A stretch of 44,073 nucleotides of DNA from Roseovarius sp. (GTDB taxonomy: Bacteria; Pseudomonadota; Alphaproteobacteria; Rhodobacterales; Rhodobacteraceae): NCBI RefSeq assembly GCF_018066915.1, contig NZ_JAGPVV010000263.1, positions 1 to 44,073 on the forward strand, in the 5' to 3' direction. The position numbers and the translations under genes were made by a program. The notes under the pieces are model-generated. The model searched no databases, was not told where the DNA came from, and worked only from the letters and a program-made list of their open reading frames with translations. This document shows positions 6,884 to 27,595 of this stretch, one piece after another. The first letter of the stretch is position 1, and each line of letters starts with the position of its first letter.

Positions 6884-6946
6884 GGTCGTCCCCATTCTTC
6901 CGGTCATGCCGGTACCGAGTGCTGCATTTTCAACAGAATAGGGTCA

Positions 6947-11424: not shown

Positions 11425-12459
11425 GTGAGGACAGATATTTCAGAAACCCCGAAGGGTGCCAAGCAGGTCCCGTTGATCGTCATACCCTGCCTAGACGAGG
11501 CTGAACACATCGCGACCCTTCTGGCGCAGCTTGTCAAGACGACGGATCAGATTGGCGGACGGATCGTGGTGGTCGATGGCGGCAGTACCGATGGAACATG
11601 GGAGATCGCTTCTGCCATAGCCAGCCGCGATGCCCGCATCTCGCTGCTGCATAATCCGCAACGCATCCAGAGTGCTGCGATCAATCTGGCGGTGGCTGAG
11701 GACCGGGGCGTATCAAGTCACTTGATCCGAATCGACGCGCACTGCCGCTATCCAGATGATTACTGTGCCCGGCTTTTGGCTGAGATGGACCGCAGCGGTG
11801 CTGATAGCGTTGTCGTCAGCATGATCGCGGAGGGAGAGCAGGGCGTGGCCGTTCTCAACGCCGTGGCGCAGAACTCGACTGTCGGGAATGGCGGCTCGCG
11901 CCACCGCAGGCGTTCTGAGGGGCGGTTTGTTGACCACGGCCACCATGCGCTGTTCCGTCTGGATGCGTTTCGGGACGTGGGGGGCTATGATCCCAGTTTC
12001 TCGCATAACGAGGATGCCGAACTCGACCTCAGGCTGAGGCGGAACGGCTACTGCATCTGGCTGACCGCCGACCCGGTCATCACCTATATCCCGCGCCGTT
12101 CGCTCGGTGCCTTGACGCGGCAATACTTCAACTATGGCTGCGGTCGCGCGCGCACGATGCGCAAGCATGCCGTTGCGCCGCAGCTACGCCAGATGAAGGT
12201 CATGATGGTGCTGCCTGCTATTGTGTTATCCGCGTTGATTGGCGTTCACTGGATATTCGCGGTACCAGTGGCTTTGTGGTTGGCGGTCTGCATTGCGTCG
12301 GGCGTGTTTCTGGCGTTCCACCACCGGCGCGCATGGCTTGTGTTGTCCAGTGTCTCGGCAATGCTGATGCATGTCGCGTGGTCAACCGGATTCTGGTGGC
12401 AGATGGTCGGGTCTCTGTTCTCTGGTGGCTCAGTGGCGTCCCCTGGAAACGCCCGATGA
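11425..12459 (+). CDS. exoA: Succinoglycan-type glycosyltransferase ExoA
   Basis: A 344-residue GT2 glycosyltransferase. The nucleotide-sugar fold shows IPCLDEAEHIATLLAQL, VVVDGGSTDGTWEIA and HLIRIDAHCRYPDDYC (the D-x-D region), then FSHNEDAELDLRLRRNGYCIW and RRSLGALTRQYFNYGCGRART. Two or three C-terminal hydrophobic helices anchor it to the membrane. In Sinorhizobium ExoA adds the first glucose (beta-1,3) to the lipid-linked galactose. I start it at the GTG at 11425, preceded by AAGGT six bases upstream. The longer in-frame extension is not family-like. It opens the plus-strand unit exoA-exoM-exoP-exoX and overlaps exoM by ATGA. Confidence 0.85.
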   Translation: MRTDISETPKGAKQVPLIVIPCLDEAEHIATLLAQLVKTTDQIGGRIVVVDGGSTDGTWEIASAIASRDARISLLHNPQRIQSAAINLAVAEDRGVSSHLIRIDAHCRYPDDYCARLLAEMDRSGADSVVVSMIAEGEQGVAVLNAVAQNSTVGNGGSRHRRRSEGRFVDHGHHALFRLDAFRDVGGYDPSFSHNEDAELDLRLRRNGYCIWLTADPVITYIPRRSLGALTRQYFNYGCGRARTMRKHAVAPQLRQMKVMMVLPAIVLSALIGVHWIFAVPVALWLAVCIASGVFLAFHHRRAWLVLSSVSAMLMHVAWSTGFWWQMVGSLFSGGSVASPGNAR

Positions 12460-13394
12460 CTGCTTGTCACAATGACAGTATCGAGGTGTGCGTCTGCACC
12501 TATCGCCGACCCCAGTTGAGCGTCACTCTGGAGTCGCTTGCGTCGTTACGCGTGCCGGATGATTTTACCCTGTCGGTGCTCGTCATAGATAACGATACAA
12601 CCCCTAGCGCACGGCCGCTGGTTGAGGGCATTGCCGAGACGTTTCCTGTTCCGCTGCGTTATGTGCATTGCCCCGAGGGAAATATCTCGATCGCCCGCAA
12701 TGGCGCTTTGGATCATTGCCGGGCGCGGTATCTCGCCTTCATAGATGATGATGAGACCGCCTCGTCCGATTGGCTTTGCGCGCTGGTCGAAGAATTGCGG
12801 CGTGTTGATGCCGATGTCGTGCTGGGTCCGGTCGAAGGCGTATACGACCAGAGCGCCCCATCGTGGATGTGCAATCTGGAGATACACTCCACGCGCCCGG
12901 TTTGGGTCAAGGGTGAGATCCGGACAGGCTATACCTGTAATGTCATCATAGACCGGCACGCGTCAGCGGTGTGCGACCGCCGCTTTGATCTGGCTCTTGG
13001 CAAGACCGGCGGCGAGGATAGCCTGTTCTTCGATGAAATCCACAAAGCAGGTGGCAAAATCGGCTATGCGGAACGTGCCTTGGTCCATGAGGATGTGCCC
13101 ACCGAACGGCTCGCCTATGGCTGGCTGTTGCGGCGGCGGTTCCGAATGGGGCAAACCCATGGGCGAATGCTGCGCCAAAAGATTGGCGCGGGGCGCTTGC
13201 TGAGCAATCTGGCTGTGGCATTGGCAAAGGTCACCTATTGCTGTGGTGCAGCCGTTCTTGGCGGCTTCGACACCACGCGGCGCAACGCGGCTTTGCTGCG
13301 CGGAACGCTGCACATTGGCGTGTTCATGGGTCTGACCGGCATGCGTGAACTCGAACTCTACGGTTCGGGTTCGGTTCAGCGAGGGGAAAATTGA
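12456..13394 (+). CDS. exoM: GT2 glycosyltransferase, ExoM-like
   Basis: A 312-residue GT2 enzyme. Its N-terminus has VCVCTYRRPQLSVTLESLAS, followed by VIDNDTTPSARPLVE, GNISIARNGALDHCRARYLAFIDDDETAS (the acidic D-D-D-E metal site) and GGEDSLFFDEIHKAGGKIGY. A hydrophobic stretch near the C-terminus may associate with the membrane. ExoM of Sinorhizobium adds a beta-1,4-glucose in the growing repeat unit, and the linkage here is inferred from that similarity only. The ATG at 12456 overlaps the exoA stop. The frame continues upstream but merely overlaps exoA. Confidence 0.8.
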   Translation: MTACHNDSIEVCVCTYRRPQLSVTLESLASLRVPDDFTLSVLVIDNDTTPSARPLVEGIAETFPVPLRYVHCPEGNISIARNGALDHCRARYLAFIDDDETASSDWLCALVEELRRVDADVVLGPVEGVYDQSAPSWMCNLEIHSTRPVWVKGEIRTGYTCNVIIDRHASAVCDRRFDLALGKTGGEDSLFFDEIHKAGGKIGYAERALVHEDVPTERLAYGWLLRRRFRMGQTHGRMLRQKIGAGRLLSNLAVALAKVTYCCGAAVLGGFDTTRRNAALLRGTLHIGVFMGLTGMRELELYGSGSVQRGEN

Positions 13395-13416
13395 CAGTGA
13401 TTGCGAGGGGTCTGAC

Positions 13417-15315
13417 ATGATGCTCAATGATCTGGGGATGAAGATCCATGACGCGGATTTCAGGCCGGACACATTGAACCGTTCCCCGGCGCAGGATCGG
13501 ACGACGACGCTTGGCGATCTGCTGGCGGCGGCCCGACGGCAGCGTTGGCCGCTGATGCTCTGCACGGCTCTCGGTCTCGGCCTTGGCTTGGTCAAGCACA
13601 TGACCACTCCGCCGCTCTATTACAGCGCTGCGACTGTGCTTGTGGATGTGCGGATGGACGAATCTGGTGGTGAGATCACACCGACCACGCCCTTTCTGCG
13701 CAACGACACCTCGCTTTTGAACGAAATTCAGGTGCTCCGTTCGCTGCGACTTGCCGAAGAGGTGGCGCGACGGCTTAGCTTGCATGAGATGCCGATTTTT
13801 CTGAATCCGCCCGAATCGCTGGCGCGCAGCATGCTCTCTGCGGTGCAGGATGCGGTGCAGAACGTGATCGAGTCCGCTCCCGAGACACCGTCGCCTCTTC
13901 CCGATAATTCGGAGGATTCGGCAATCAAGAGAGCTGCCCTCATATTGCAACGGGACGTCGGCATCGACCGGATCGGGCAGAGCTTCACAATTGATATCAG
14001 CTATATCGGGCCGGAGCCCGCGCTCGCCGCCGCTATCGTCAATACCTATGCTGAATCGTATCTTGCGGCCCATCTGAACGCAAAAATGGAAGTGACGGCG
14101 CGCATGGCTGAATGGATGCAAGCGCGGATTGGCGAATTGCAGCGGGAAAGCGAAGCCATACAGATGCGCGCAGAGGCGCTGCGCGCCCAAACTCCCCCTG
14201 ACACAAAAGCGCTGAAGGCGCTCGCGCAGCGGGCAGCCAATCTTGAGACGTTGCAGCAAACTCTGTCGTCTCGCTATGAGATGGTCACTATCGAGGGGTC
14301 ATACCCGGTCACCAATGGGCGCATCCTGAGCGAGGCAGCGGTGCCGAAAAAGCCAGATCTTCCGAAGCTATGGCAGTCTGCTGCGATCGCGACGATCCTT
14401 GGTTTCATGGTCGGGTTTGTTATCGCCATCCTGCGCGAAACCCGCGAGCGTGCGTTTCGTGTCGGCGAAGACGTTTGGGTCGATACCGGCAAGCCGTTCC
14501 TCGGTTACATGCCACTTTTCGACACTGCTGCGCTGTCTCGGCAAGCACCGCGCGGTAAGAGCGAAAACGGGAAAAATAATGGCGACACCGATGCCCGCAG
14601 CGTGGTGCAATCGACAGCCCCCAGTCTGTTCATGTCGTTGCTCGATTCCCAATCACTCTTGGCCGACACTCTGCGGAATGTGCAGAGTACGGTCATGCTG
14701 GCGCCCACCGACACTGGCGCACAGGTGATCGGCGTGTCCTCGATGGTCGCGGGAGAAGGCAAGACAACCCTCGCCGCCAATTATGCAAACCTTGTCGCCC
14801 AATCGGGTGCTCGAACGCTCTTGGTTGATCTCGATCTCCATCGGTCTGCGCTGACCAGGATGCTCCAGTGCAATCAAGGGGCGGATCTGATACGCATCCT
14901 CGACGGAACCGCGACACTGGATGAGGCGCTGAAAACAGTGTCGGTGTCGGGTCTCGATTTCTTACCCTGCATTCCAGAGCACAATCCGCGACGCTCCAGT
15001 GATGCTCTGATGAGGCAGACGATGACGGCCCTGATCGAGTCTCTGCGACACCGGTACGATTTCGTGGTGCTCGACCTGCCACCGCTGGGAACAATTGCCG
15101 ACACCAAGATCATGCTGTCGCGGATCGACCACATAATCCTGCAATGTGCTTGGGGTAAAACACCGCGCACTCTTGTCCGAGATTATCTCAGAATGGAACC
15201 TGAAGTCGCGCGGAAAGTGCTGGGAATCGTTCTGAACAAGGTGGAAATGCGACGGCTGCGCAAGTTCGCGAGGCCTGGCAGTTGGGAAACCTATTTGGAA
15301 GAGAAATACGGATAG
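13417..15315 (+). CDS. exoP: Polysaccharide co-polymerase / BY-kinase-like protein ExoP
   Basis: A 632-residue inner-membrane protein. An N-terminal Wzz domain is framed by two helices at about residues 40-60 and 318-340. A large periplasmic coiled-coil part lies between them, with LQRESEAIQMRAEALRAQ. The C-terminal cytoplasmic ATPase has Walker A SSMVAGEGKTTLAAN at about 441, Walker A' LLVDLDLHR at about 468 and Walker B FVVLDLPP at about 548. It controls chain length and couples polymerisation to export. The tail has only two tyrosines (TYLEEKYG), far fewer than the tyrosine cluster of classical bacterial tyrosine kinases. The ATG at 13417 follows GCGAGGGG by six bases. Confidence 0.88.
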   Translation: MMLNDLGMKIHDADFRPDTLNRSPAQDRTTTLGDLLAAARRQRWPLMLCTALGLGLGLVKHMTTPPLYYSAATVLVDVRMDESGGEITPTTPFLRNDTSLLNEIQVLRSLRLAEEVARRLSLHEMPIFLNPPESLARSMLSAVQDAVQNVIESAPETPSPLPDNSEDSAIKRAALILQRDVGIDRIGQSFTIDISYIGPEPALAAAIVNTYAESYLAAHLNAKMEVTARMAEWMQARIGELQRESEAIQMRAEALRAQTPPDTKALKALAQRAANLETLQQTLSSRYEMVTIEGSYPVTNGRILSEAAVPKKPDLPKLWQSAAIATILGFMVGFVIAILRETRERAFRVGEDVWVDTGKPFLGYMPLFDTAALSRQAPRGKSENGKNNGDTDARSVVQSTAPSLFMSLLDSQSLLADTLRNVQSTVMLAPTDTGAQVIGVSSMVAGEGKTTLAANYANLVAQSGARTLLVDLDLHRSALTRMLQCNQGADLIRILDGTATLDEALKTVSVSGLDFLPCIPEHNPRRSSDALMRQTMTALIESLRHRYDFVVLDLPPLGTIADTKIMLSRIDHIILQCAWGKTPRTLVRDYLRMEPEVARKVLGIVLNKVEMRRLRKFARPGSWETYLEEKYG

Positions 15316-15421
15316 GCACGACTGGTCCTCATACTTGCGCGCATGTCGGCACTTCGGTAGCCTGCACCCTGATTATCCGTTATGCTGCTCTTCAATTCAG
15401 CACGGGGGTGAGGGTTCTGGA

Positions 15422-15685
15422 ATGCGTTTGGTGGTATTTGCCGCATTTCTTTTGGTCGCGATGATTCTCGTAGGGGCCTGGTCGCTTGCACAGGGCGCAG
15501 GGTTTGCGACGGTGGCTCTGCGTCTTATCGTGACCGCAATTGTCCTGCAGGTGGGGTATTTCGTGATGCTGGTCGTCGTTGCCTATCTGCCGAACTCTTC
15601 CGGGCGGGACGACCCCAGTCGTGCAGAGAAAGAGCGGCATCCTCCGTCCCAGTCGGTGCGCGGTGCAAACGATTCCTCTCACTGA
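15422..15685 (+). CDS. exoX: Exopolysaccharide production repressor (ExoX/SyrA-like)
   Basis: An 87-residue protein with two hydrophobic helices, residues about 2-24 and 28-52, and a polar C-terminal tail. The second helix, LRLIVTAIVLQVGYFVMLVVVAYLP, resembles the ExoX/SyrA family of small membrane proteins that restrain exopolysaccharide synthesis, probably by acting on ExoY. I start at the ATG at 15422 because the first helix begins there. It is the last gene of the exoA-M-P-X unit and converges with a glycosyltransferase gene 14 bp away. Sequence similarity in such a short hydrophobic protein is modest, but the locus supports the call. Confidence 0.7.
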   Translation: MRLVVFAAFLLVAMILVGAWSLAQGAGFATVALRLIVTAIVLQVGYFVMLVVVAYLPNSSGRDDPSRAEKERHPPSQSVRGANDSSH

Positions 15686-15704
15686 TTTGATCCCCAAGAT
15701 CAGT
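15681..15704. terminator. Dyad between convergent exoX and glycosyltransferase genes
   Basis: ACTGAT at 15681-15686 and ATCAGT at 15699-15704 form a 6-bp inverted repeat across the convergent stop codons. There is no T run. It may end transcription from both sides, weakly. Confidence 0.25.
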
Positions 15705-16680
15705 TCGCCTGTGCTTGGAGGAACTGGTGTAGCCCAGGCTCTGGACGACCGATCAGCCGGATCAGTCCGCCGCGTACGGCAAGGCGCAGCGCTTCCTTCC
15801 ACCGGAGAGCCGTCCCTGCGCCCAGCCTGATGTGCGATTTCACGAGGCCGCGAGCGCGCGATTCCCGTGAATAGCAAAATTGAGGATGGATGAGAAAGTT
15901 GGCGCGATCTTCGGCGCGTGCAATAGTCCAGGCGCGCCGTTGCAGAATGCCTATGGAATGTTTGAGCGTCAGTTCGCGGTTGAAATATCCCACGTTTAAC
16001 CCGTGGTCGCGTTGGGTCGCATCGCCGTTCTCCGCCCAGACGGCCAGCGGTTCGAGCGCCACGTAGATCGGTTCAGTGATCGCGAAGGTGCGCATGTATT
16101 CCTGCAGCGTGGCACTGCACGGAACACTCACCTCCAGTTCCGACGAGGCCTCACGAGACCAGAAAAGGCCGCCGTTGGAGACTCCGATATCCGCGATCAG
16201 GCTCAGGCGGAATACATCCGGCTCGTAGCGCCCGGCACTCAGCTTGTCATCGAGAAGCCCGCTTTTGCTCAACCGCGCATCAGGGGTGTCGCTGTGATGT
16301 TCCACGAGTTGGTTGCGCAGGACGATCTGAACATTCTCGCGATGGCAGAGCGCGATGTTGTCTTCCATGAAGCGCGGCAGAATGAAGTTGTCATCCTCCA
16401 CCACACAGAAATAATCAGCCTCGCGCGGATTGTCCCGTGAGAAGCACTTGTCGATATTACGTGACGCAAATCGCTGTGGCCGGTTGTGGTTGTAGGTGAT
16501 GCGGTCGTCCGAGAAAGCCTTAACAACGTCTCTTGCAGAGCCTTCCGGGTCGTCATCGTAGACGTCGCAAACCCAGTTGCCATGGGACTGTTCAATGAGA
16601 CTTGTCAGGCAGCGGTGAAGCGGTTCGGGCCGACGGTAAGTCGGAGTACGTACATGAACGAGGGCATGAGAAAGAGACAT
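15700..16680 (-). CDS. GT2 family glycosyltransferase
   Basis: A 326-residue GT2 enzyme. It has VHVRTPTYRRPEPLHRCLTSLIEQ at the start, CDVYDDDPEGSARDVV as the nucleotide-binding strand, and YFCVVEDDNFILPRFMED as the acidic metal site near residue 95. It probably transfers one sugar of the repeat unit at the cytoplasmic membrane face. By elimination it may fill the place of ExoU or ExoW, but its sequence does not let me say which. The ATG at 16680 starts 3 bp before the stop of the upstream ExoO-like gene with AAAGG about ten bases ahead; a TTG at 16689 is a possible longer start. It forms a two-gene minus-strand unit with that ExoO-like gene. Confidence 0.8.
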   Translation of the reverse strand: MSLSHALVHVRTPTYRRPEPLHRCLTSLIEQSHGNWVCDVYDDDPEGSARDVVKAFSDDRITYNHNRPQRFASRNIDKCFSRDNPREADYFCVVEDDNFILPRFMEDNIALCHRENVQIVLRNQLVEHHSDTPDARLSKSGLLDDKLSAGRYEPDVFRLSLIADIGVSNGGLFWSREASSELEVSVPCSATLQEYMRTFAITEPIYVALEPLAVWAENGDATQRDHGLNVGYFNRELTLKHSIGILQRRAWTIARAEDRANFLIHPQFCYSRESRARGLVKSHIRLGAGTALRWKEALRLAVRGGLIRLIGRPEPGLHQFLQAQAN

Positions 16681-16682
16681 GA

Positions 16683-18113
16683 TCAACAAGCCTTTGTCGT
16701 GATTGCGGCGTGAACCGGCGATGGTCGTGGCGGTGGGGCTTCGTTTTCAGGTGCCGGGGCGGGTATCAGGGATAGGGTGCGCCGCGCCGCAGTTTTGGCA
16801 TCGGAATGGGCTAAGCTGGTCGCAGGGGAGAGGATGGCATAGCCGTTCGCGAGCAATCGCTTTGCACCTATGGGCCAATCGCTTCCGGCTTGACCGAGCA
16901 GCACGCGCTGCGGCGCGGAGACATATCCAAGCGCAAAGAGCCCGACACCGCCAACGGCAATCACCCGCGTCGCGGGATGCTGTGTGGCCGCTGTCACCTT
17001 TGCCCAGTCGGTCGCGGTCCATGCGTCAGTGGAATGGGGAATAGCAATATGTCGCAACATGCCACTGAAACCGGAATGCTCCGGCAGTTTCTCGTTTGGC
17101 GGCGCGAGCAGGATATCCGGAGTTGCCAGTGGTTGAGGACTCTTGCGCCGCAAGCGGCGCGCCACACGCCGAGAGGCCAGACGGGCGAGCGCAAAGGCGG
17201 TCCCTGGATGGCCGAGGGTCCGCCCGAGCGCTGACAGAATTCGCCTCGCCCTAATGTCGGCAACGCAAGCTTCGAACCGCTTTGACCGCTCCATCGCAAG
17301 CCGCCGACGCGACGCGAGCGCGCGCTCAGCCTCTGACATCAACGGCACCAGATCATCCTGGGCCTTGATCATCGCAGTGAGGTCCGCGGGCTTCAACCGG
17401 TGCGAAATTGACGCCGGGTGTTGTCGATAGAGGTAATAGGACTGTGGTATCAGATACATGTTCCCGCCGCCGAGCAGGAAGCGCATGTAGAATTCGTGAT
17501 CCTCACCAATGCGGATATCCTCGCGGTACCGAAGGGCACCAATACATTCACGGCGGAGCATCGGCTTGAGATAACCGAGCAGCCCGCCCGCCCCTGTCCC
17601 GAGCATCATCGCAGGCGTGATGCGGACTGGTTCCATCTGGCGGGTGTCGCCCAGAAGCGTACTGGATTCCTCGTCGGACGGGCCATCGTGAAAGCGGATC
17701 AGATCATCGGCGATTACATCGGCCCCCAAGGTGTGTGCCGCGCCGATCAATCGCTCGAAGCGTTCAGGATGCAGCAGATCATCCGAGTCGACGATCGCGA
17801 TCCATGTCCCTCTTGCCATGTCCATCGCCCGGTTCCGGGCTGCTGCTGGGCCGGTATTGACGTCCGAGCGGAACAGCTTCACGCGCTGATCTCCTGCAAT
17901 GATCTCGGTCACAAGTTGCACGCTGGCGTCGGTCGAGGCATCGTCGACGACCAGCAGTTCGATATCCTCAACAGACTGGGCAAGAACGGAATGCACAGCA
18001 CTCGCAAGATGCGCCGCCCCATTGAAATTCGCCATGATGACAGACACTAACGGATCTCGTCCAGCGATATGATGTGCGGGTTGCGCCCCGACTGTCTGGT
18101 GGCGTTCTACCAT
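16683..18113 (-). CDS. exoO: GT2 glycosyltransferase, ExoO-like, with long C-terminal extension
   Basis: A 476-residue protein. The first roughly 300 residues are a GT2 domain: LVSVIMANFNGAAHLASAV, LLVVDDASTDASVQL, then GPAAARNRAMDMARGTWIAIVDSDDLLHPERFERL with the D-S-D-D metal site, and IRIGEDHEFYMRFLLGGG. ExoO of Sinorhizobium adds a beta-1,6-glucose and, as I recall, is about 350 residues. Here the last roughly 160 residues (from about RRVARRLRRKSPQ) form an extra part with TRVIAVGGVGLFALGY and a proline-rich end that I do not recognise. I start at the ATG at 18113. It is divergent from the GH16 exoK gene across 291 bp. Confidence 0.75.
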   Translation of the reverse strand: MVERHQTVGAQPAHHIAGRDPLVSVIMANFNGAAHLASAVHSVLAQSVEDIELLVVDDASTDASVQLVTEIIAGDQRVKLFRSDVNTGPAAARNRAMDMARGTWIAIVDSDDLLHPERFERLIGAAHTLGADVIADDLIRFHDGPSDEESSTLLGDTRQMEPVRITPAMMLGTGAGGLLGYLKPMLRRECIGALRYREDIRIGEDHEFYMRFLLGGGNMYLIPQSYYLYRQHPASISHRLKPADLTAMIKAQDDLVPLMSEAERALASRRRLAMERSKRFEACVADIRARRILSALGRTLGHPGTAFALARLASRRVARRLRRKSPQPLATPDILLAPPNEKLPEHSGFSGMLRHIAIPHSTDAWTATDWAKVTAATQHPATRVIAVGGVGLFALGYVSAPQRVLLGQAGSDWPIGAKRLLANGYAILSPATSLAHSDAKTAARRTLSLIPAPAPENEAPPPRPSPVHAAITTKAC

Positions 18114-18404
18114 GGGACATGGTCCTTTCTCCTTGCCATCGACCCGTACGCAGTCATTGCCTGACAGCACAGTGTGCCGGATAGGTCATCAATCTGACCC
18201 GCCACAGCGCTCTGAGACAATACCCGTTTGGCAGAAAGTCATAGGGACGGGCTGTGCCATAAACGGATTTCCGCCGGTGGCACGGCATTCTGGCAGCCTC
18301 TTGCCGATCACGGCGAAACGGCGCCCATGCGCTTTGCATTGGATCGCGATTCCCAGAAAGCTCGGCCCGACATGCCGTCCACCGTCCAGCTTCAGGAGTG
18401 CTCC

Positions 18405-19223
18405 ATGCCAAAGATTCGCCTCTTTCCCTCCGCCTGCCATTCCGCAAGGCTTGCAAGGTCCTTCGGCGCGGCGCTTGTCGCTTTCAGTCTTGCACCGCCC
18501 GTACCGGCGGCGGAGGAAATCCCGCAAGGCTCCAGCTTTTTCGACGATTTTGACAGTTTTGATAAATCGCTCTGGGGAATCTCGGACGGTTGGGTGAATG
18601 GGACCTGGCAGAATTGCCGGTGGTCCAAGGACGCGATGTCAGTGTCGGACGGATATCTCAACCTTCAGTTTCTCCGTCACCCGACCGAGAAACTCGATTA
18701 CATCTGTGGAGAGATCCAATCCCGCGAGAGATATGGCTACGGGGTTTACGAAGCGCGATTTCGCACGGCGCAGGGCTCGGGACTCAACGCCGCCTTTTTC
18801 ACCTATATTGGCCCGCATCACGGCAAGCCACACGGCGAGATCGACTTTGAAGTTCTGACGCGCGACACCTCGCGGGTAAGTCTGAACACCTATGTTGCTG
18901 GAAAGCCCCACAACGGCAAACCCGTGCCCCTGCCACATCCGTCGGACGACGGCTTTATCACGTACTCCTTTGTATGGTCGAAGGACGGCATCACCTGGTA
19001 TGTCGATGGCGTCAAAATGCACGAAACCGCCGCCGGGTCGCCGCTGCCCACTGATGCACAAAAGATCTATGCCAGTTTCTGGGGCAGCGACTCTTTTCCC
19101 AACTGGATGGGGCGTTTCGACGAACCGGAGCAGGATCTGACGATGAACGTCGACTGGATCGCCTTTACGGCAGAGGGCGAAAGCTGCCAGTTTCCAGCCT
19201 CCCTACTCTGTAAATTGGAATGA
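18405..19223 (+). CDS. exoK: GH16 endo-glycanase (ExoK-like depolymerase)
   Basis: A 272-residue secreted enzyme. Residues 1-36 form a signal peptide ending VPAAEE. The GH16 domain begins FFDDFDSFDKSLWGISDGW and contains RERYGYGVYEARFRTAQGSG and the catalytic motif HGEIDFEVL, whose two glutamates around the aspartate act as nucleophile and acid/base. YSFVWSKDGITWYVDGV follows. ExoK in Sinorhizobium trims nascent succinoglycan into shorter chains outside the cell. The ATG at 18405 has CAGGAG six bases upstream, and the longer frame is not signal-like. It overlaps the exoQ start by ATGA. Confidence 0.88.
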   Translation: MPKIRLFPSACHSARLARSFGAALVAFSLAPPVPAAEEIPQGSSFFDDFDSFDKSLWGISDGWVNGTWQNCRWSKDAMSVSDGYLNLQFLRHPTEKLDYICGEIQSRERYGYGVYEARFRTAQGSGLNAAFFTYIGPHHGKPHGEIDFEVLTRDTSRVSLNTYVAGKPHNGKPVPLPHPSDDGFITYSFVWSKDGITWYVDGVKMHETAAGSPLPTDAQKIYASFWGSDSFPNWMGRFDEPEQDLTMNVDWIAFTAEGESCQFPASLLCKLE

Positions 19224-20470
19224 TATCCGGAGCGGGGCATGAGCGTGAAATGGTCCCCGTCTCGCGGCGGTACATCGCTGCCCCGGCCCATGTCGTCGAG
19301 ATATCGCTCGATGGGGTGCTCGCCGGAATAGCTGTCGCGGCACTGGTGCTCGTCCCGATGCTTCGCACCTATGGCGCGCTGCTTTTTTTGATCGCAGGCG
19401 TTCTTCTCTGCGCGCGGCACTGGACGCGGGTCGCCGCCGTGTGCCTCAATTACTGGTATCTGCTGTGTCTTCCGGCCTATTGTCTGATGAGCTTTGCGTG
19501 GTCACAATTTCCGGGGCTGAGCTTTCGGTATGGGCTGCAACTTATGGTCACGATGGTCATCGCCCTGATGATTGTGACCCGGATCAGTCCCCGGCTGTTC
19601 GGTCGGCTGCTGTTCTTGTGTTTCGCAATTGCGATGGTGGCGAGTGTATTGGTCGGGCAGGTGCGCGCCGATACCGGAGCTTGGCTGGGCATTTACGGAA
19701 GCAAGAATGCACTGGCCGGAGCTGCCGCCATCTTCGTCGTGATCTCGGTCGCGCAGGCCCTCGACAGCAGCGCCAGCTACCGATTTCGCCTGATGGCCTG
19801 TTTCGGCATCATGACGGGGGGCATCCTGCTGCTTCAGGCGCAGTCCATGAGCGCCCTGCTGCTCATCCCTCCCGCGCTCCTGATCCAGGCTGGCTTGCTC
19901 ATCCTCTACAGGCTCACCCCGTTGCAGCGGGCTGTTACGATCATTGCAGTCCTGCTCGGTGTCAGCCTTGGAGTGCTTCTGGTTGCGGTGAACATGGACG
20001 CGCTTGTGCGCACAGCCCTCGAAATGATGGGCAAGGATGCGACACTGACCGGGCGCACGGACCTCTGGCGGATGGCCACGGATCTGATTGCGCAACGCCC
20101 GCTGTTCGGCGTCGGCTATCAGGCCTTTTGGGTGCAGGGGCACGCCCCCGCCGAGGCCCTCTGGGCGCAATTCGGTATTGATGGCCGGAGCGGTTTCAAT
20201 TTTCACAACACCTACCTGTCGAACGCGGTCGAAATCGGTCTCGTGGGCGTGGCATTGCAGGTTGGTGTGCTATACGGCGCTGCCGTTGTGACCTATGTTT
20301 GGGCTCTGCGGTCGCGCAGCGCCGAAGCCACACTAATGTTTGTTATGGTGGTGATCGTGATCATGATCAGCTTTGTCGAGGTGCCGGTGTTCTTTCAGTT
20401 CAGCCTGCGCACCGTGCTGATCATCTGCGCCTTCGCCTATGCGGTGCGGGAACTGCGTGCGATGCGGTAG
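19220..20470 (+). CDS. exoQ: Polysaccharide polymerase (O-antigen ligase family, ExoQ-like)
   Basis: A 416-residue polytopic membrane protein with about eleven or twelve helices, the size of ExoQ/Wzy polymerases. The Wzy_C/O-antigen ligase region contains DATLTGRTDLWRMATDLIAQRPLFGVGYQAFW at about residues 275-305 and FNFHNTYLSNAVEIGLVG soon after. The histidine in FHNTYL is the conserved catalytic-loop residue. It would polymerise flipped repeat units on the periplasmic side. The ATG at 19220 overlaps the exoK stop. It converges with exoV 16 bp later. Confidence 0.85.
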   Translation: MISGAGHEREMVPVSRRYIAAPAHVVEISLDGVLAGIAVAALVLVPMLRTYGALLFLIAGVLLCARHWTRVAAVCLNYWYLLCLPAYCLMSFAWSQFPGLSFRYGLQLMVTMVIALMIVTRISPRLFGRLLFLCFAIAMVASVLVGQVRADTGAWLGIYGSKNALAGAAAIFVVISVAQALDSSASYRFRLMACFGIMTGGILLLQAQSMSALLLIPPALLIQAGLLILYRLTPLQRAVTIIAVLLGVSLGVLLVAVNMDALVRTALEMMGKDATLTGRTDLWRMATDLIAQRPLFGVGYQAFWVQGHAPAEALWAQFGIDGRSGFNFHNTYLSNAVEIGLVGVALQVGVLYGAAVVTYVWALRSRSAEATLMFVMVVIVIMISFVEVPVFFQFSLRTVLIICAFAYAVRELRAMR

Positions 20471-20486
20471 CGATCCTGACCCGGAC

Positions 20487-21389
20487 TTAGGTTGACCAGG
20501 CTTTGTCCCCATAGTCCCGGACCATCGCCTCGACGCGGCTCAAGGCGCGGTCTGTCGCGCGTTCGATCTCGCTGTCGGCGCTCAGGTGCGGATCGACACG
20601 GGCGAGGCTTTGCAGGCTGCGCGCGGCCAGATGCCGACACGCCCAATTGACCGGACGGCCCGCCGGGTTCTCAAAAACCGCGCGCACGCCCGGACCACTG
20701 CCGGAACGCCCGGTTGCGACGGCCCAGGCTTCGCGGCCATTGGACGGGAGGAGGGGCCGTGGTCGATAGGGTATCGCAAGCGAGTCGGTCCAGTCATACC
20801 ATTTGAATCGATGGACGTGATGCATGGTCTTCACGCCGATCCAAGGTGTGCGCATGGCGTCGGCGACAATTGCACCGTGCATCGCCTCGGCGATCACCAG
20901 ATCTGCGCCGCGCAGTTGGGCAATCACCTGATCCGGGCTTTCGGTCGGATCAATGAAATGGATACCGGCAAGGTCGCACGCCGCGCGCCAATCGCCGCGT
21001 TCTATGCTTTCATAATGCGGTATGAATGCTGTGCCGATTGCCTTTGCCGGTGGGGGCAGCGGGGTAGCACGCAACAGGACCGCCGCATCGGTTATCGCCT
21101 GACGCGGATCGAGACCTAGCGCGCTTGCGGTCCGTGGGCCGCGCACGAACCGGAAATCCCAAGTCCCGTCGGAAATGTCCGGCAGAGCTGTGTAACCGCC
21201 ATACCCCGATCCGACGACCACCTTGCGTGCGGATCTGGGGTAATTGTGCTGAATCACCGAGCCGATTCCGACGAACAGCGTGGAGGGGTCTTCGTCGAAG
21301 AAGCTCTGCGGCAGCAGATGATGCCACATGGTGGCATTCAGCTCGTCCCCAAAGTTCGGGGAGCGGCCTTGGAAATATGTAAGTTTCAT
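20487..21389 (-). CDS. exoV: Polysaccharide pyruvyl transferase (ExoV-like)
   Basis: A 300-residue member of the polysaccharide pyruvyl transferase family (CsaB/ExoV type). It opens LTYFQGRSPNFGDELNATMWHHLL, the typical NxGDE pattern. Later come VGIGSVIQHN, RFVRGPRTASALG and ADLVIAEAMHGAIVADAMRTPWIGV, the latter with the conserved histidine. It puts a 4,6-ketal pyruvate from phosphoenolpyruvate onto a terminal sugar, adding negative charge to the polymer. The ATG at 21389 overlaps the stop of the flippase gene, so the two are translationally coupled. The longer upstream frame only shadows that gene. It is the last gene of the exoY-exoF-exoT-exoV unit. Confidence 0.88.
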   Translation of the reverse strand: MKLTYFQGRSPNFGDELNATMWHHLLPQSFFDEDPSTLFVGIGSVIQHNYPRSARKVVVGSGYGGYTALPDISDGTWDFRFVRGPRTASALGLDPRQAITDAAVLLRATPLPPPAKAIGTAFIPHYESIERGDWRAACDLAGIHFIDPTESPDQVIAQLRGADLVIAEAMHGAIVADAMRTPWIGVKTMHHVHRFKWYDWTDSLAIPYRPRPLLPSNGREAWAVATGRSGSGPGVRAVFENPAGRPVNWACRHLAARSLQSLARVDPHLSADSEIERATDRALSRVEAMVRDYGDKAWST

Positions 21390-22891
21390 GCAGTCTTTCT
21401 CCGACCAGGCCACACGAGGTTGAGGATCTCCACAATTCTGTCCCTTGCGATCAATCCGAGGACGGCCAGATAGGTGACTATCGCGATACCGATACGGGCC
21501 GCCACTGAGATGGCGGGAGATAGCTCGGGCGCCAGATGCTGGGTTGCCAGCACCGCAGAAATCATCGCCAGAGTGGCAATAGCCGGGGTGACAAACGTGC
21601 CCAGATACTTGAGGAGTCCAATCCCCAGCAGTCGTGCCATCATGATGACCGATATCGGCCAGACCAGCAGGGATTTGAGAACAAGCGCGATCATGAGCGT
21701 CTCCAGCCCGGCACTGAAGGTTACACCGATCACCAGCAGCGACGTTGCCTGCTGGATAAGCTGGTAGAAGAACCACCAGTTTGCTTTGCCTTGGCTGCGG
21801 ATGAACGCGCCTTGCACAACGCTGACGCCCGCTATGCAGCCGATCACGCTGAACATCTGCACTGTGAATCCGGCACCCTGCCACCGGGGATCGAAGAGCA
21901 ATGCCACGATGTCGGGGGCGAGCACCAAGAGCAGGCTGAACAACGGCAGGCTGACGACCGCCGCCGAGAACGACGCAATGTAGAAGGCGCGGGCGGTCTT
22001 CTCGCGGTCATCCTGAAGAGATGAGAACAATGCATGTGTCACAGATGAAAGCGCGCCGCCGACGAATTGGGTCAGCATCAGGTAGAGCTTTTGAGCAAAG
22101 AAGTAGAACCCGAGCATCGCCGTGCCGCCAAGCGCACCCAGTACGATGTGATCAAGACGCATTGTCGTCAGCATTCGAGTTCCAGACGCATAGAGCCCGT
22201 ATCCCGTCAACTCTTTGATTGCGTGCAGATTGAAGCTCAGACCGGGGCGCCAACCGGAAGTCCAGAAGACCATAGCACAGATCACGATACTGCTCGAAAG
22301 CTGGCTGATTGCCAGAGCCCAATAGCCATACCCAGCCCAAAGTAAGGAGAGGGTGATGACCAAGCTGACCGAAGTGGCGACGGAGGTTCGCAAGGCGACA
22401 AGCTTGAACTTCATCGACCGCACGATCATCGCGTTGGGCACCGCCACCGACAAGTCGAGCGGGATACGCAGTCCCAACAGCAGTAGGAGCGCGGCAATTG
22501 CGCTGTCGCCTGCCCATTGCGCGATGGACGGTGCTGCCAGAAAGACCGACAACATCAGAACCAAACCAACCGCTATCGTCATCCAGAAGACACTGTCGGC
22601 GTTGGATTTCGAGATCGTCTTGCGCTGAACAAGGGCCTCGCCGAACGCAATTGGCGACACCGCTATCGCCGTCATCACCAAACTGCTCGCAAGGCCGAAG
22701 AGCCCCAGATCGGCCGGGGAGAGATAGCGTGCGCTGACGTAAAAAATCAGCGTGGAACCGAAGATTGGAATAGCCGTGTGCAACGATGACCAGAGCACTC
22801 CAACAGCGGCGGACCGCGACCGGCCGGTGCGGACATGCGGATGATAAGCCGTGCCAGGAGCGACAGCGGTGGTCTCAAGCGATTGGCTCAT
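21386..22891 (-). CDS. exoT: Repeat-unit flippase (Wzx/ExoT-like)
   Basis: A 501-residue MOP-superfamily membrane protein with about twelve to fourteen helices. It opens after a short polar leader with SAAVGVLWSSLHTAIPIFGSTLIFYVSARYLSPADLGLFGLASSLV, the typical polysaccharide-transporter start. GYGLYASGTRMLTTMRLDHIVLGALGGTAMLGFYFFAQKL follows in the middle. It would move the lipid-linked repeat unit across the inner membrane. The ATG at 22891 is chosen because the protein before it reads like a shadow of exoF. It lies between exoF (25 bp upstream) and exoV (4-bp overlap). Confidence 0.85.
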   Translation of the reverse strand: MSQSLETTAVAPGTAYHPHVRTGRSRSAAVGVLWSSLHTAIPIFGSTLIFYVSARYLSPADLGLFGLASSLVMTAIAVSPIAFGEALVQRKTISKSNADSVFWMTIAVGLVLMLSVFLAAPSIAQWAGDSAIAALLLLLGLRIPLDLSVAVPNAMIVRSMKFKLVALRTSVATSVSLVITLSLLWAGYGYWALAISQLSSSIVICAMVFWTSGWRPGLSFNLHAIKELTGYGLYASGTRMLTTMRLDHIVLGALGGTAMLGFYFFAQKLYLMLTQFVGGALSSVTHALFSSLQDDREKTARAFYIASFSAAVVSLPLFSLLLVLAPDIVALLFDPRWQGAGFTVQMFSVIGCIAGVSVVQGAFIRSQGKANWWFFYQLIQQATSLLVIGVTFSAGLETLMIALVLKSLLVWPISVIMMARLLGIGLLKYLGTFVTPAIATLAMISAVLATQHLAPELSPAISVAARIGIAIVTYLAVLGLIARDRIVEILNLVWPGRRKTA

Positions 22892-22916
22892 GGCAAATCC
22901 CGATCTGGCTGATGCT

Positions 22917-24197
22917 TCAGTTGACCGATCCGGCTGCGGAAAACGCCGCCGGGGTTTCTGGAAAATCTTCCTCAAGAATGTCCGGGAATTTGACCTCGAC
23001 CACATCACCCGGCAGAATTTCGGTATCGCTTTGCGCCTCAAACTGGCGGGAGTCGCCTTCGCGGGTGCGGGTGATCCAGAATTCCGGCGTGCCGACGGCG
23101 CGCGCATGCAGGCTTTCGAGCGTGACGTCCTCGCCGAGTGCTGCCGACATCAGCGCATATTCTCCGTCCAGCTTGGCTTCGGCCTCTACGATCTTGGCGG
23201 TGACCTCTTGCAGTTCGGTGACTGCGGTTTCGGCCCGCGACGCCTCCAGCACAATCCGTTCTTCCTCGATGTCTCGTAGATTTTGCTGTGTCGACAGGAT
23301 TGAACGCTCGATATCGAGCACTCGGCTTTCCACCTCGCCAACATAGCGCACGCGATCAAACAACCGCGCACGGGTAGCAAGACCTTGCTCGACCATGTCT
23401 TCCTCGCGTCTCAGTTCCTCGCGACCAGCCCGCAGTTGCTCCGTGTTGGTTGCGAGTTTCTGTTCCAGCACTCTGATTGCATCGTTCAAGGCGGTTTCCG
23501 CCTTGTCGAGGAACGCCAACTGCTGGTCGAGCAGTTGGTTGCGAGCCTCAAAGATCGCCGCCTCGCCCGCGCGGAACTTGCTGACGCTCGGCAGGTCCGG
23601 ACTATCTCTTGCGGCTGTTATTTCACTGCGCGCGACTTCTGCAGCCAGGCGATCCCTTCGTGCTTCGAGAAAGCGCAACTGCTTGCTCAGAACCATGGCC
23701 GCGCTCCGGGCGAGGTAAAAGTTGCGTTCTTGGCCAAGGATGGGCTCTATCCGGGCAGTACCGCCAGCGAGCGTCACGGCCTTGAGCACAGTCAAGCCGG
23801 GAGAATACGTGTAGACATTCGGTGCATCGACCTCACCTGCGACGTAGATCATCGCATATTGCTCGACATCGACCGATACTCGGGGCGTGCGGCCGGCTCC
23901 GGCGTAGCCTGCCATCGCTTCTTGAAGGGTCGATGCGATTTCCTGTGGTGTGAGACCCGCCACATCCACGCTACCGACCAGCGGAACAGAGATCTTTCCA
24001 CCGGCACTGACGCTGTAGCTGTCCGAAACTGTCAGCAGTTCCTCGACCGTGCCGTCGGCAGCGTTCCAGATCGTCGCCCGCACTTTGAGAATGTCGTTCA
24101 TGCCAACAGGTACGTCCTGCGTTTGCGCTAAGGCTGGCTGGTTCAGCCAGAGCATCGCGGTCAGACAGGCCGATATGGCCCTCGATGTCCATTGCAT
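22917..24197 (-). CDS. exoF: Polysaccharide export protein (Wza/ExoF-like)
   Basis: A 426-residue secreted protein. The signal peptide is about 26 residues (SACLTAMLWLNQPALAQ). A polysaccharide biosynthesis/export domain follows with VGMNDILKVRATIW, SVSAGGKISVPLVGSVDVAGLTPQEIASTLQEAM, and a SLBB segment MIYVAGEVDAPNVYTYSPGLTVLKAV. A long coiled-coil then spans roughly residues 175-345, ending in a second short SLBB-like end (SDTEILPGDVVEVKFP). It works with ExoP in moving the polymer through the periplasm. The ATG at 24197 has AAAAGGG about eight bases ahead. Confidence 0.88.
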   Translation of the reverse strand: MQWTSRAISACLTAMLWLNQPALAQTQDVPVGMNDILKVRATIWNAADGTVEELLTVSDSYSVSAGGKISVPLVGSVDVAGLTPQEIASTLQEAMAGYAGAGRTPRVSVDVEQYAMIYVAGEVDAPNVYTYSPGLTVLKAVTLAGGTARIEPILGQERNFYLARSAAMVLSKQLRFLEARRDRLAAEVARSEITAARDSPDLPSVSKFRAGEAAIFEARNQLLDQQLAFLDKAETALNDAIRVLEQKLATNTEQLRAGREELRREEDMVEQGLATRARLFDRVRYVGEVESRVLDIERSILSTQQNLRDIEEERIVLEASRAETAVTELQEVTAKIVEAEAKLDGEYALMSAALGEDVTLESLHARAVGTPEFWITRTREGDSRQFEAQSDTEILPGDVVEVKFPDILEEDFPETPAAFSAAGSVN

Positions 24198-24291
24198 CAC
24201 GCATCCCTTTTCATAGTTTGCCGTGCTGCATCGCCAATCTGATGCGTGCAAGACCAGATGTCTGCGGTGTTGCGCGCGCTCCCGCCACGAC

Positions 24292-25005
24292 TCAGTACGA
24301 GCCCCGCGCCGCGATAACCGCCGGGATTGTTCGGACCAGAATCACGCAGTCCAAAAACAGTGACCAGTTTTGTACATACGATTTGTCCAATTCGACCCGC
24401 TTGTCGTAACCGACATCGCTGCGTCCGCTTACTTGCCAAAGGCCGGTGATTCCGGGGTGAGCGCTCAGATAAAACTGCACCGCGTCGCTGTAGAGTGACA
24501 GTTCATCGCGCACCACGGGGCGTGGGCCGACCAGACTCATTGAGCCGGCCAGAACATTGAGCAATTGCGGTAACTCATCGACGCTATAGGTGCGAAGAAC
24601 CGCGCCAATCCGTGTTACTCGGGGGTCGTTTTTCAGCTTGCGTTCGGTGACCCATGCGTGGTGCTCGTCAGGGTGTTCTGCCAGGTAGCGGTCCAACAGG
24701 TCCTGACCATCGACCACCATGGACCGAAACTTCCAGCAGCGGAACGGCTGCCCAGCATAGCCGATGCGAGTATGACCAAACAGCACAGGGCCGGGCGATG
24801 TAATCTTGATCGCGCAGGCGATCAGCATGAACAGAGGGCTTAGAAGAACGAGGCCGAAGAGCGCCACGAGAACGTCCAAAACTCTCTTTGAGCGCCCCCC
24901 TAACACCCTGCGTGAGGAGGTTCTCGTATCGCCATGCTCGTCGCCGCCGGAACAAGTTTGGCGACTGGTAAACACTTCCGGGCTAACTTCATTCGACGTC
25001 GACAT
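24292..25005 (-). CDS. exoY: Undecaprenyl-phosphate sugar-1-phosphate transferase (ExoY)
   Basis: A 237-residue initiating glycosyltransferase of the bacterial sugar transferase family. A single membrane helix (VLDVLVALFGLVLLSPLFML, about residues 42-62) is followed by the catalytic part with GYAGQPFRCWKFRSMVVDGQ, RTYSVDELPQLLNVLAG, SMSLVGPRPVV and HPGITGLWQVSGRSDVGY. It loads the first sugar phosphate, galactose in Sinorhizobium, onto undecaprenyl phosphate. The ATG at 25005 has AGGAG about eight bases upstream. It heads the minus-strand unit exoY-exoF-exoT-exoV, separated by 94 bp from exoF. ExoX, encoded in the other unit, is expected to act on it. Confidence 0.9.
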   Translation of the reverse strand: MSTSNEVSPEVFTSRQTCSGGDEHGDTRTSSRRVLGGRSKRVLDVLVALFGLVLLSPLFMLIACAIKITSPGPVLFGHTRIGYAGQPFRCWKFRSMVVDGQDLLDRYLAEHPDEHHAWVTERKLKNDPRVTRIGAVLRTYSVDELPQLLNVLAGSMSLVGPRPVVRDELSLYSDAVQFYLSAHPGITGLWQVSGRSDVGYDKRVELDKSYVQNWSLFLDCVILVRTIPAVIAARGSY

Positions 25006-25482
25006 GTGCGTGCTCCTGAAGAGGTGACTGGAAATCTGCACAAACCATTACTTGATGGCCTCGATATCGAGTAGCGTCACTTTGCAACTGCAGCGAGAAC
25101 AGCAGAATTTTGCCACCTCTGGTTGCCGGAACTTGCGTAAACATCAAATAAACTCAGGGGATTCGGCTCGCCCTTGCGGTGTCAAATCAATATAAACGAA
25201 CTATAACAAGACCTTCCGTAGATGCGCGAACTATCGCATTTTCGACCACGGTTTCTTGCCGATGGGCATGCAAGTCATGAGAAACGACGCTCGCTCCGGC
25301 CGGATCTCGTGTGTGGTCGCGGAAGTAGAGGGTTTCATTTGCTGGCCGAGGCTTTAATTGCACGACTGCAAAGACGCGGCCAAGCCGAACAATCACATCG
25401 AAACGAAGAACGTCGGGCCCTGCTCATGGGTAGATCGGTTACCCGGAACAAGCAAACACATGATGCACTGTGAGGATGACTC
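25006..25482. other. Divergent control region between exoY and the sulfotransferase gene
   Basis: No credible gene lies in these 477 bp. The short frames across it do not look protein-like. The middle (about 25140-25215) is AT-rich for the window and probably holds the exoY promoter. CGAACTAT occurs twice in direct orientation, at 25197-25204 and 25227-25234, 30 bp apart, roughly three helical turns. I see nothing that names the regulator. Confidence 0.4.
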
Positions 25483-26373
25483 GTGACCGCACCCCCTGAA
25501 ACCGAATTCAATAGCCAGCAGCTTGCTGTTCCGAAGACTCTCTGGCACCGGCAATTCGCAGTCGAGAACGACTTTGATCCGACCCCGGTGACATGTCATG
25601 TCGCCATTTGCACAACGCCGCGATGCGGCAGCCATTTTCTTGGCCATCAGATGCGCGCACTGAATTGCTTTGGCTATCCGCTGGAATATCTCAACTCTGG
25701 CAACTGGCCGGTCTGGGAAAAGCGCGCGCGCCGCGCCGGTGCGACCGATACTCTCCAATTCATCAAATCGGTTCGCACCGGTCCCAACGGAGTTTTCTCC
25801 GTAAAGTTACACCATGAGCATCTGGAAGCGTTCTTGGACCACGAAGTCGATCCGTTGAGCTATCGTTTCATCCAACTGCAGCGCCGCGATCTTGTGCGGC
25901 AGGCGGTTTCATTCGCGCGGGCGCAGCAAACCGGGGCTTGGATCTCGGACATGCCGGAGCGGGCCGAAGCGCGATACGACCGCAATCTGATTGCGGCGAA
26001 GGTGGAAGCGATTGCCGATTTCAATGCCGGATGGACGTCTTTCCTGGCCAGTCTGGGCGTGAAGCCCTTGGAACTCTTCTATGAGGATATCGTTACCGAC
26101 CGGAAGGGCGCAATTGAGCGTATAGCGACCTATCTCAATATCGAGTTGCCGGATGCATCGACCGGCGAGAATGTCTTTCAGCCCAAGGCTCAACGCGCAT
26201 CCAACGATCCTACAGAAGTCTGGGTCGAGCGATTTAAGTCAGAGAATCGCGGCGCTATCGGGCAATGTCAGCCCATACCCGGTTATCGACACACGCCCAA
26301 GGCGCGACGTCTTGGCAACGGCCTTCGGCAAACTGTTTCGGGCGCGCTGCGGCGCTTCGGCCTTGGGGCGTGA
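25483..26373 (+). CDS. Stf0-type sulfotransferase
   Basis: A 296-residue cytoplasmic sulfotransferase of the Stf0 type. The PAPS 5'-phosphosulfate loop is seen as CTTPRCGSHFLGHQM at residues 43-57. Later family features are FSVKLHHEHLEAFL and YRFIQLQRRDLVRQAVSFARAQQTGAW (the 3'-phosphate-binding R-x-x-x-x-x-x-S area), then LELFYEDIVTDRKGAIERIATYL. It should transfer sulfate from PAPS to a sugar hydroxyl. Lying between exoY and exoL, it most likely sulfates a repeat-unit sugar or its lipid-linked precursor, which classical succinoglycan loci do not do; this is inference from position. The GTG at 25483 follows GAGGA by six bases. Confidence 0.85.
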   Translation: MTAPPETEFNSQQLAVPKTLWHRQFAVENDFDPTPVTCHVAICTTPRCGSHFLGHQMRALNCFGYPLEYLNSGNWPVWEKRARRAGATDTLQFIKSVRTGPNGVFSVKLHHEHLEAFLDHEVDPLSYRFIQLQRRDLVRQAVSFARAQQTGAWISDMPERAEARYDRNLIAAKVEAIADFNAGWTSFLASLGVKPLELFYEDIVTDRKGAIERIATYLNIELPDASTGENVFQPKAQRASNDPTEVWVERFKSENRGAIGQCQPIPGYRHTPKARRLGNGLRQTVSGALRRFGLGA

Positions 26374-26443
26374 CGACGGCGCCAAGGAAACATTGCTGTC
26401 CGCTTTAGGTTTGGTGTCGACGTTCAAAACCGAGAAGGCCGTC

Positions 26444-27595
26444 TTAGCGATTTGCTGGCGAGATTCGGAATGCCGGGCTCAGAGCGTCTTCAATCGCCTC
26501 GGGGCGAAGTTCGAACTGCTTGTCGTCCTGCTCCAGAATCCCTTGCGAAAGAGCGCTGAGTTCAGGACGCGTGATACGGCGTAGGAGCGCGACAAGCGCA
26601 TCGGCGGAAGGCTCTGATATTGTCAGGCCCAGTTGTTCGGCTGCAACCTTTCGACCTGTCTCGGTCGTTTCAACCGCAATCGAAGGGCAGCCGAACCAGC
26701 TCGCCTCATACATCCGATTGGGCAATAGCCAGTCCGAATTCGCGCCGCTTTGCCAGAGATCCTGTGCCCAGACAAGATCGCTGCCAGCGTAGATCGCTTC
26801 GAGATCGCGAGGATAGCTGTAGGGGCCAAAGAATCGAATATTTGCCCGCGACTCCACGGCTGCGTCGATGTCGCCGATCGCGTGCCGGTGAACATTCCCA
26901 TGGATGTTGATCTGCACATCCTTGCCCATCCGGTCGGCGGTTTGAAGCAGGATCTGAAGGCTAGGCGCACAGCGAATGGACCCCACCCAACTTAGAATAA
27001 TGGGACCACGCGCATTGCGTCGCGGTGCGTCCAGCGGGCGCGAGACCGTTGCGCCATCGAACCAGAGCTTGTTCTCGATGATCGAGACGTCACCGTGGAA
27101 TCCCTGAACCGGCACGAAGTAATGTTCGACGAAGCCGGGCGAAGAGACGATCAGAAGTTGCACGCGCGCCAGAAGGCGCCGTTCACACCAACGCATCAGA
27201 GCACCAATTGCGTCGGGGCGTGTGAATAGCCGGTGGATGTCGAGGCACTCGTATACGATTGGGACCCGTCTTCGACCGAACAGGCCTCGTGCCATCCAGG
27301 CGAGGATCAAAAGATCGAAGTTTCGCGCCACAATGACATCTGCAGATCTGAGATTCTGCCGTGATCTGAAGGTTGGCCAGAGGGCTCGGATAAGAGCAAG
27401 GAGGCGTTTGCCGTAGTTCTCGTTCGGGACGTGACCGAGGTTGGTATTCGTCCAGTCTGGCACAAAGTCCGCGTTCATATTGCCGCGCTGAAACGCCAAG
27501 CTTCGCACGTCGTAGCCGAGCTGTAACAAGCTGCGAATCCGGCGAATCTGCGAAGCCTCTTTGATGTCAAAAGCAAAGACAACGACACGCGCCAT
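26444..27595 (-). CDS. exoL: GT4-like glycosyltransferase, ExoL-like
   Basis: A 383-residue GT-B fold enzyme. The N-terminus ARVVVFAFDIKEASQIRRIRSLLQLGYDVRSLAF resembles ExoL. The C-terminal half has ILSWVGSIRCAPSLQILLQTADRMG, ANIRFFGPYSYPRDLEAIYAGSDLVW and LLPNRMYEASWFGCPSIAVE, the acceptor and nucleotide-sugar loop with a glutamate near residue 310. ExoL in Sinorhizobium adds the second glucose (beta-1,4). The real ATG is at 27595, and the TTG at 27601 in frame is less likely. It converges with the sulfotransferase gene 70 bp away and is the outermost gene of the locus on this side. Confidence 0.75.
   Translation of the reverse strand: MARVVVFAFDIKEASQIRRIRSLLQLGYDVRSLAFQRGNMNADFVPDWTNTNLGHVPNENYGKRLLALIRALWPTFRSRQNLRSADVIVARNFDLLILAWMARGLFGRRRVPIVYECLDIHRLFTRPDAIGALMRWCERRLLARVQLLIVSSPGFVEHYFVPVQGFHGDVSIIENKLWFDGATVSRPLDAPRRNARGPIILSWVGSIRCAPSLQILLQTADRMGKDVQINIHGNVHRHAIGDIDAAVESRANIRFFGPYSYPRDLEAIYAGSDLVWAQDLWQSGANSDWLLPNRMYEASWFGCPSIAVETTETGRKVAAEQLGLTISEPSADALVALLRRITRPELSALSQGILEQDDKQFELRPEAIEDALSPAFRISPANR

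Follow-up and report, generated by a model that had tools for sequence, protein, structure and literature searches.

The window analysed here, a complete 44,073-base contig (NZ_JAGPVV010000263.1) of a Roseovarius genome held in 363 contigs, encodes at positions 11425-27595 a 14-gene succinoglycan-type exopolysaccharide (exo) locus that includes a gene for a Stf0 sulfotransferase (Table 1). The locus was characterised by family searches and by comparison with the exo locus on pMl3 of Sinorhizobium medicae, a record that itself names only exoF, exoA, exoP and galE; most of its other gene names we assigned from the gene order of S. meliloti. The ends given in an earlier note on this DNA coincide with the in-frame starts of exoA (GTG) and exoL, and its assignments of exoA, exoM, exoP, exoK, exoQ, exoV, exoT, exoF, exoY and exoL are borne out by both the family searches and the comparison, while its exoX keeps the expected position after exoP, also in relatives, but is a weak sequence match. 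As in the Sinorhizobium locus, the backbone enzymes ExoY, ExoA, ExoL and ExoM are all present, together with the ExoP, ExoQ, ExoT and ExoF export machinery, ExoV, the endo-glycanase ExoK and an ExoX-like gene. The window differs from it in gene order, in the added Stf0 and in the side-chain enzymes, the octasaccharide set of ExoO, ExoU and ExoW being represented by one ExoO/ExoU-like glycosyltransferase (GT), here called GTa, and by a second, GTb, not found in the S. medicae locus; there is no clear exoU or exoW. Succinoglycan is a Glc7Gal1 polymer carrying pyruvate, succinate and acetate, and none of the 14 proteins matches S. medicae exoH, exoZ, exoI, exoN or exoB, so that the lack of exoH and exoZ remarked upon previously holds.

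The Stf0 protein passes the curated PF09037 cut-off and, on the model, has the Stf0 fold. An AlphaFold model (mean predicted local distance difference test score 81.8) searched with Foldseek gave as its top four matches the chains of the mycobacterial trehalose 2-sulfotransferase Stf0 (1TEX; E 2.3e-10 to 1.8e-8, TM-score 0.51-0.64), with a root-mean-square deviation of 8.1-10.5 across the whole alignment, so the superposition is only partial. The two proteins are about 20% identical and share an arginine in the loop (RxGS) that binds 3'-phosphoadenosine-5'-phosphosulfate (PAPS). A profile search also matched the protein to 1TEX; in a weakly aligned piece it has His55 in place of a 1TEX glutamate. 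No hydrophobic (membrane) segment was found in the protein and its best structural matches are mycobacterial Stf0, with moderate TM-scores, which suggests cytosolic action on a lipid-linked unit before ExoT flips it. PAPS dependence is plausible from family membership, and PAPS is likewise plausible as the donor because the genome encodes an adenosine-5'-phosphosulfate kinase.

Stf0 belongs to this exo locus as a conserved member across genera, by the comparison of gene neighbourhoods that the earlier note proposed. In Roseovarius sp. 217, R. azorensis and a 517-kb plasmid of Qingshengfaniella alkalisoli, it lies between exoY and exoL as in the window, and all 14 genes match in the same order, at 90-98% identity (80% for a short amino-terminal piece of exoK), 72-87% (62-63% for two short terminal pieces) and 40-77%, respectively; the first two hold its closest relatives. 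A non-exhaustive scan of one genome per species with two peptide patterns gave ten Stf0 loci, namely these two Roseovarius loci and eight others. In seven of the eight the gene order is retained between the exoP end and exoL, Stf0 included, with exoX unmatched in three and exoF in one, and the place of Stf0 is kept in 11 loci, the window's counted. Among 394 genomes drawn from the family, mostly one per genus, Stf0 is found at E≤1e-30 in seven: the window's, Qingshengfaniella, Actibacterium and four with diverged copies (36-40%), all among exo genes. Six of the seven, the window's included, have surrounding exo genes and the seventh has an adjacent exoV-like gene. A draw of 60 Roseovarius genomes contained three with this ExoK (>480 bits), each with Stf0, indicating that the locus is patchy in the genus and, in these three, comes with the sulfotransferase.

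Two loci are partial. The eighth scan locus, in Actibacterium lipolyticum (L039:8042-10816), has a GT2 gene, an exoV-like gene and stf0 in a row amid unrelated metabolic genes, the exoV-like gene and stf0 sharing 4 bases. Within 10 kb of the trio there is no further exo match, and the genome has no ExoK or GTb match at the thresholds used. On a 63-kb plasmid of Jannaschia sp. W003 (L026), about 1.2 kb separates Stf0 from an exoV-like gene. In the stretch of this plasmid that was covered, glycosyltransferase genes are interspersed with five genes that carry a sulfotransferase annotation. Outside the family, 385 genomes sampled across the class yielded two more in which relatives of Stf0 occur (E≤1e-25). 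Between them these genomes have three copies (27-34%), none with an exo match in the surrounding 20 kb.

Stf0 has diverged together with its neighbours. Across 12-14 loci its pairwise identities were compared with those of each of eight exo genes and proved to be correlated (r=0.65-0.90), none of 2000 label permutations being as high in any test, a procedure that ignores the shared descent of whole loci; three pairs of exo genes compared with each other gave similar values (0.61-0.95). Of the 15 exo-linked loci, all but L050 entered the test. In comparisons with the Roseovarius sp. 217 and R. azorensis genes, the ratio of non-synonymous to synonymous substitution (dN/dS) of Stf0 is 0.17 and 0.18, values inside the range spanned by the 12 other genes tested, and the gene is under purifying selection. 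Its GC content at third codon positions (GC3) is 0.636, the lowest of the 13 genes measured, with exoL next at 0.643; exoX was not among these genes. A recent insertion of stf0 was considered and rejected despite this value, as its dN/dS and distance patterns are like those of its neighbours.

The two side-chain enzymes are encoded by overlapping genes in the window (15700-18113) and by a single fused frame in five of 16 clusters (L023, L038, L048, L107 and L108), suggesting that they probably add consecutive side-chain sugars; GTa probably adds the first and GTb the last. A match to GTb was found in seven of the 394 family genomes. We rejected the possibility that the minus-strand pair is one frameshifted gene: Qingshengfaniella has the fused form, but two other Roseovarius genomes share the overlapping pair in different frames. 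If ExoY, ExoA, ExoL, ExoM, GTa and GTb each act once, the repeat unit would contain six sugars. The earlier proposal of a unit shorter than that of succinoglycan is thus supported in part, by the GTa-GTb fusions, but diverged Stf0 genes also occur where exoU- and exoW-like genes are part of the locus.

Taken together, we think it probable that the locus makes an acidic exopolysaccharide on the succinoglycan backbone plan, sulfated by a cytosolic Stf0. In such a Wzx/Wzy-type pathway ExoY would start each unit on its carrier lipid, the backbone would be extended by ExoA, ExoL and ExoM, GTa and GTb would add a short side chain, and ExoV would place a pyruvate ketal on that side chain. Stf0 may use PAPS to transfer sulfate to a hydroxyl group of this lipid-linked unit, the side chain modified by ExoV being the most likely site. 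ExoT would afterwards flip the unit, ExoQ, ExoP and ExoF would polymerise and export it, and ExoK would trim the product. The acceptor, the order of steps and the sulfated, pyruvylated chemistry are predictions. The Actibacterium trio and the Jannaschia Stf0 near an exoV-like gene favour the side chain as the site of sulfate. A scheme differing in the acceptor alone, in which the sulfated sugar belongs to the backbone common to Stf0-bearing exo loci, is the less likely of the two, though it deserves some weight: the backbone is what the loci with diverged Stf0 and exoU- or exoW-like side-chain genes share, and three of the four genomes with diverged Stf0 have no GTb match, but the lone trio of GT2, exoV-like and stf0 genes points to the side chain.

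Several observations, along with the low GC3 and the shared descent that the permutation test ignores, weigh against sulfation of this polymer by Stf0, or against its placement. The side-chain position rests on the two partial loci, and loci with the same GTs but without Stf0 exist (L107 and L108), so Stf0 is dispensable. Its strand is opposite to that of both neighbours, exoY and exoL, which precludes co-transcription, and a scan for promoter-like sites of the sigma-70 type alone found none in 24900-27800, where 1.5 would be expected in shuffled sequence. For strains that carry the locus, the literature search turned up no measurement of polymer or sulfate. Nor does the tree group the exo-linked Stf0 proteins in a single clade, the Jannaschia, S. 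meliloti and Actibacterium rows being interspersed among them without firm support. A first tree (24 rows) was distorted by long branches, and after removal of three rows (G006, G016b and G002) a second (21 rows) required three changes, while 14% of 200 bootstrap trees gave one, which leaves room for a single origin. Beyond the three exo-linked entries, seven of 18 Stf0 matches were entered for the tree, one of which (L008) gave no match and was dropped. As a side observation, L107 and L108 have the same GT set and lack both Stf0 and ExoK.

It is conceivable, if improbable, that Stf0 travels with the exo locus while sulfating another surface glycan, such as lipopolysaccharide (LPS) or capsule, or a small sugar. 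The mycobacterial enzyme acts on trehalose, S. meliloti is described as having sulfated LPS and capsular K polysaccharide (KPS) (PMC5498481), Stf0 stands on its own strand, and the three relatives from another family are without exo genes nearby. Against this, the place of Stf0 is conserved in 11 loci, it diverges with the exo genes, and it pairs with an exoV-like gene even where a GT2 gene is all that the neighbouring 10 kb otherwise hold of the locus.

The earlier note further held that the sulfotransferase replaces acyl decoration, and here the comparison of loci argues otherwise. An ExoK-model match was found in 37 of the 394 genomes, of which 18 weaker ones (140 bits or less) were set aside, by judgement, as other GH16 proteins; the 19 genomes at 190 bits or more, with two that have GTb but lack ExoK, gave 21 loci, searched within 10 kb of exoK (or of GTb where exoK is absent) on the same contig, several contigs ending sooner. 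Expected numbers are Poisson estimates that assume 4 Mb per genome and full 20-kb spans, even where contigs end sooner. No PF01757 acyltransferase occurs in any of the 21 loci, with or without a sulfotransferase (0.30 expected by chance). Stf0 occurs in five (four of 20 without the window; 0.065 expected), and a PF13469 sulfotransferase in four (G151, G114, G191 and G077), against an expectation of 0.35 that is if anything too high, being based on 75 PF13469 matches less five Stf0 cross-matches, with at least four more and some split matches remaining. Many of the open reading frames (ORFs) sent to Pfam were probably wrong-strand frames, without a match. The G077 gene lies at the edge, beyond exoL, and is a partial family match. 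Outside these counts are G225, where Stf0 accompanies exoN-, exoL-, exoA-, exoM- and exoP-like genes on a separate contig from exoK, and G203, with a PF13469 gene 16 kb from exoK. Two of the non-Stf0 sulfotransferases (L101 and L104) are 44% alike, a third (L103) is 26-31% identical to that pair and the fourth (L099) barely similar, suggesting that sulfotransferases have been repeatedly recruited into succinoglycan-type loci.

The nearest acyltransferase lies about 14 kb from exoK, in G109, and S. medicae exoH and exoZ have no match in the 16 stretches compared, among them L107 and L108, the closest loci in GT content that lack Stf0. Loci L032-L038 reach 10 kb either side of Stf0, and acyl genes farther out are possible there; the other surveyed loci end at 20 kb or at contig ends. 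A model in which sulfate assumed the succinyl or acetyl role after loss of exoH and exoZ would explain why neither is matched in loci where sulfotransferases recur, but we consider it very doubtful, since the 11 of 21 loci in which no sulfotransferase was found nearby lack acyltransferases just as the others do, exchange at one position is seen in no locus, and two PF01757 genes on other contigs of the window's genome, partly exoZ-like, make acetylation by a distant gene possible. On the preferred reading Stf0 would supply an extra charged group rather than make up for an acyltransferase that the locus has lost.

Table 1. Genes of the exo locus in the window and non-Stf0 sulfotransferases of related loci. 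Percentages are identities to S. medicae proteins unless stated otherwise.
Feature	Position	Strand	Evidence or setting
exoA-like GT2	11425..12459	+	PF00535; 51% to ExoA
exoM-like GT2	12456..13394	+	PF00535; 53% to ExoM
exoP-like chain-length protein/tyrosine autokinase (Wzz/BY-kinase)	13420..15315	+	PF02706, PF13614, TIGR01007 above cut-off; 34% to ExoP
exoX-like small protein, two hydrophobic stretches	15422..15685	+	23% to ExoX, E 1.6e-4
GTb, GT2 without counterpart in S. medicae exo locus	15700..16680	-	PF00535
GTa, ExoO/ExoU-like GT2	16683..18113	-	PF00535, 112 bits; 31% to ExoO, 30% to ExoU
exoK, GH16 endo-1,3-1,4-beta-glycanase	18405..19223	+	NCBIfam NF052392, 366.6 bits (cut-off 350); 47% to ExoK
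exoQ-like Wzy polymerase (Wzy_C)	19220..20470	+	PF04932; 30% to ExoQ
exoV, pyruvyl (ketal) transferase	20487..21389	-	PF04230; 37% to ExoV; 77% to Qingshengfaniella protein
exoT, Wzx flippase	21386..22891	-	PF13440; 27% to ExoT
exoF, export protein (Poly_export/SLBB)	22917..24197	-	PF02563, PF10531; 29% to ExoF
exoY, initiating sugar-phosphate transferase (Bac_transf)	24292..25005	-	PF02397; 55% to ExoY
Stf0 sulfotransferase	25483..26373	+	PF09037, 82.4 bits (cut-off 22)
exoL-like GT4	26444..27595	-	PF13579; 35% to ExoL
PF13469 sulfotransferase	L101:6925-7896		embedded among exo genes
PF13469 sulfotransferase	L104:10989-11867		embedded among exo genes
PF13469 sulfotransferase	L103:8361-9488		edge of exo locus
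PF13469 sulfotransferase	L099:18610-19512		edge of exo locus; partial family match

The starts of GTa, GTb, exoX (ORF from 15335) and exoK (ORF from 18228) were picked by eye, that of exoK at a signal-peptide-like stretch. The EIDFE motif of ExoK, presumably catalytic, aligns with EIDIE of a solved beta-glucanase, and the ExoA-like enzyme is predicted to carry out a beta-1,3-glucosyl step, the one attributed to ExoA. Flanking the locus are a polysaccharide deacetylase-family gene (6011-6907), about 4.5 kb before exoA, and, just past exoL, a sigma-70 region 2/4 gene, which may be of the extracytoplasmic function type, beside a carboxymuconolactone decarboxylase-family gene (28219-29629).

Elements of this arrangement are known separately. 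S. meliloti has a nodP2-SMb21248 cluster with ExoP2, ExoF2/F3 and three sulfotransferases, thought by its authors to make a sulfated surface polymer; it resembles the present locus in joining polysaccharide genes with sulfotransferases but is described apart from the succinoglycan genes (PMC5498481). The exopolysaccharide of Salipiger mucosus A3T, also of the Rhodobacteraceae, contains both pyruvate (6%) and sulfate (0.9%), but differs in its glucose, mannose, galactose and fucose composition and in its acetyl groups (0.9%) (PMC2953402). Succinoglycan genes have been reported in roseobacters at the level of annotation (PMC3230580, PMC10090131), and a review describes Stf0 as a mycobacterial glycolipid enzyme (PMC11625862); passages of two further papers (PMC4189415 and PMC4148975) add nothing on this locus. 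Among the matches listed from the open-licence literature, no title, opening of an abstract or consulted passage places Stf0 in a succinoglycan locus, and the phrase 'sulfated succinoglycan' found no paper there.

Among acidic polymers succinoglycan serves as a model, noted for the pyruvate and acyl groups that it bears, and the data presented here suggest that Roseovarius and related bacteria make a sulfated version of a succinoglycan-like polymer. The chances seem evenly balanced that the Rhodobacteraceae produce a whole family of sulfated, pyruvylated polymers of this type, with independent recruitment of sulfotransferases from two or more lineages, perhaps three or four, and with ExoV and Stf0 forming a movable module for side-chain decoration. 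A conserved sulfotransferase in marine relatives would open sulfated bacterial polysaccharides to genetic study, with one gene to delete and several sequenced strains, named above, in which sulfation can be examined, and would point to sulfate as a favoured charged group of this polymer class outside the rhizobia.

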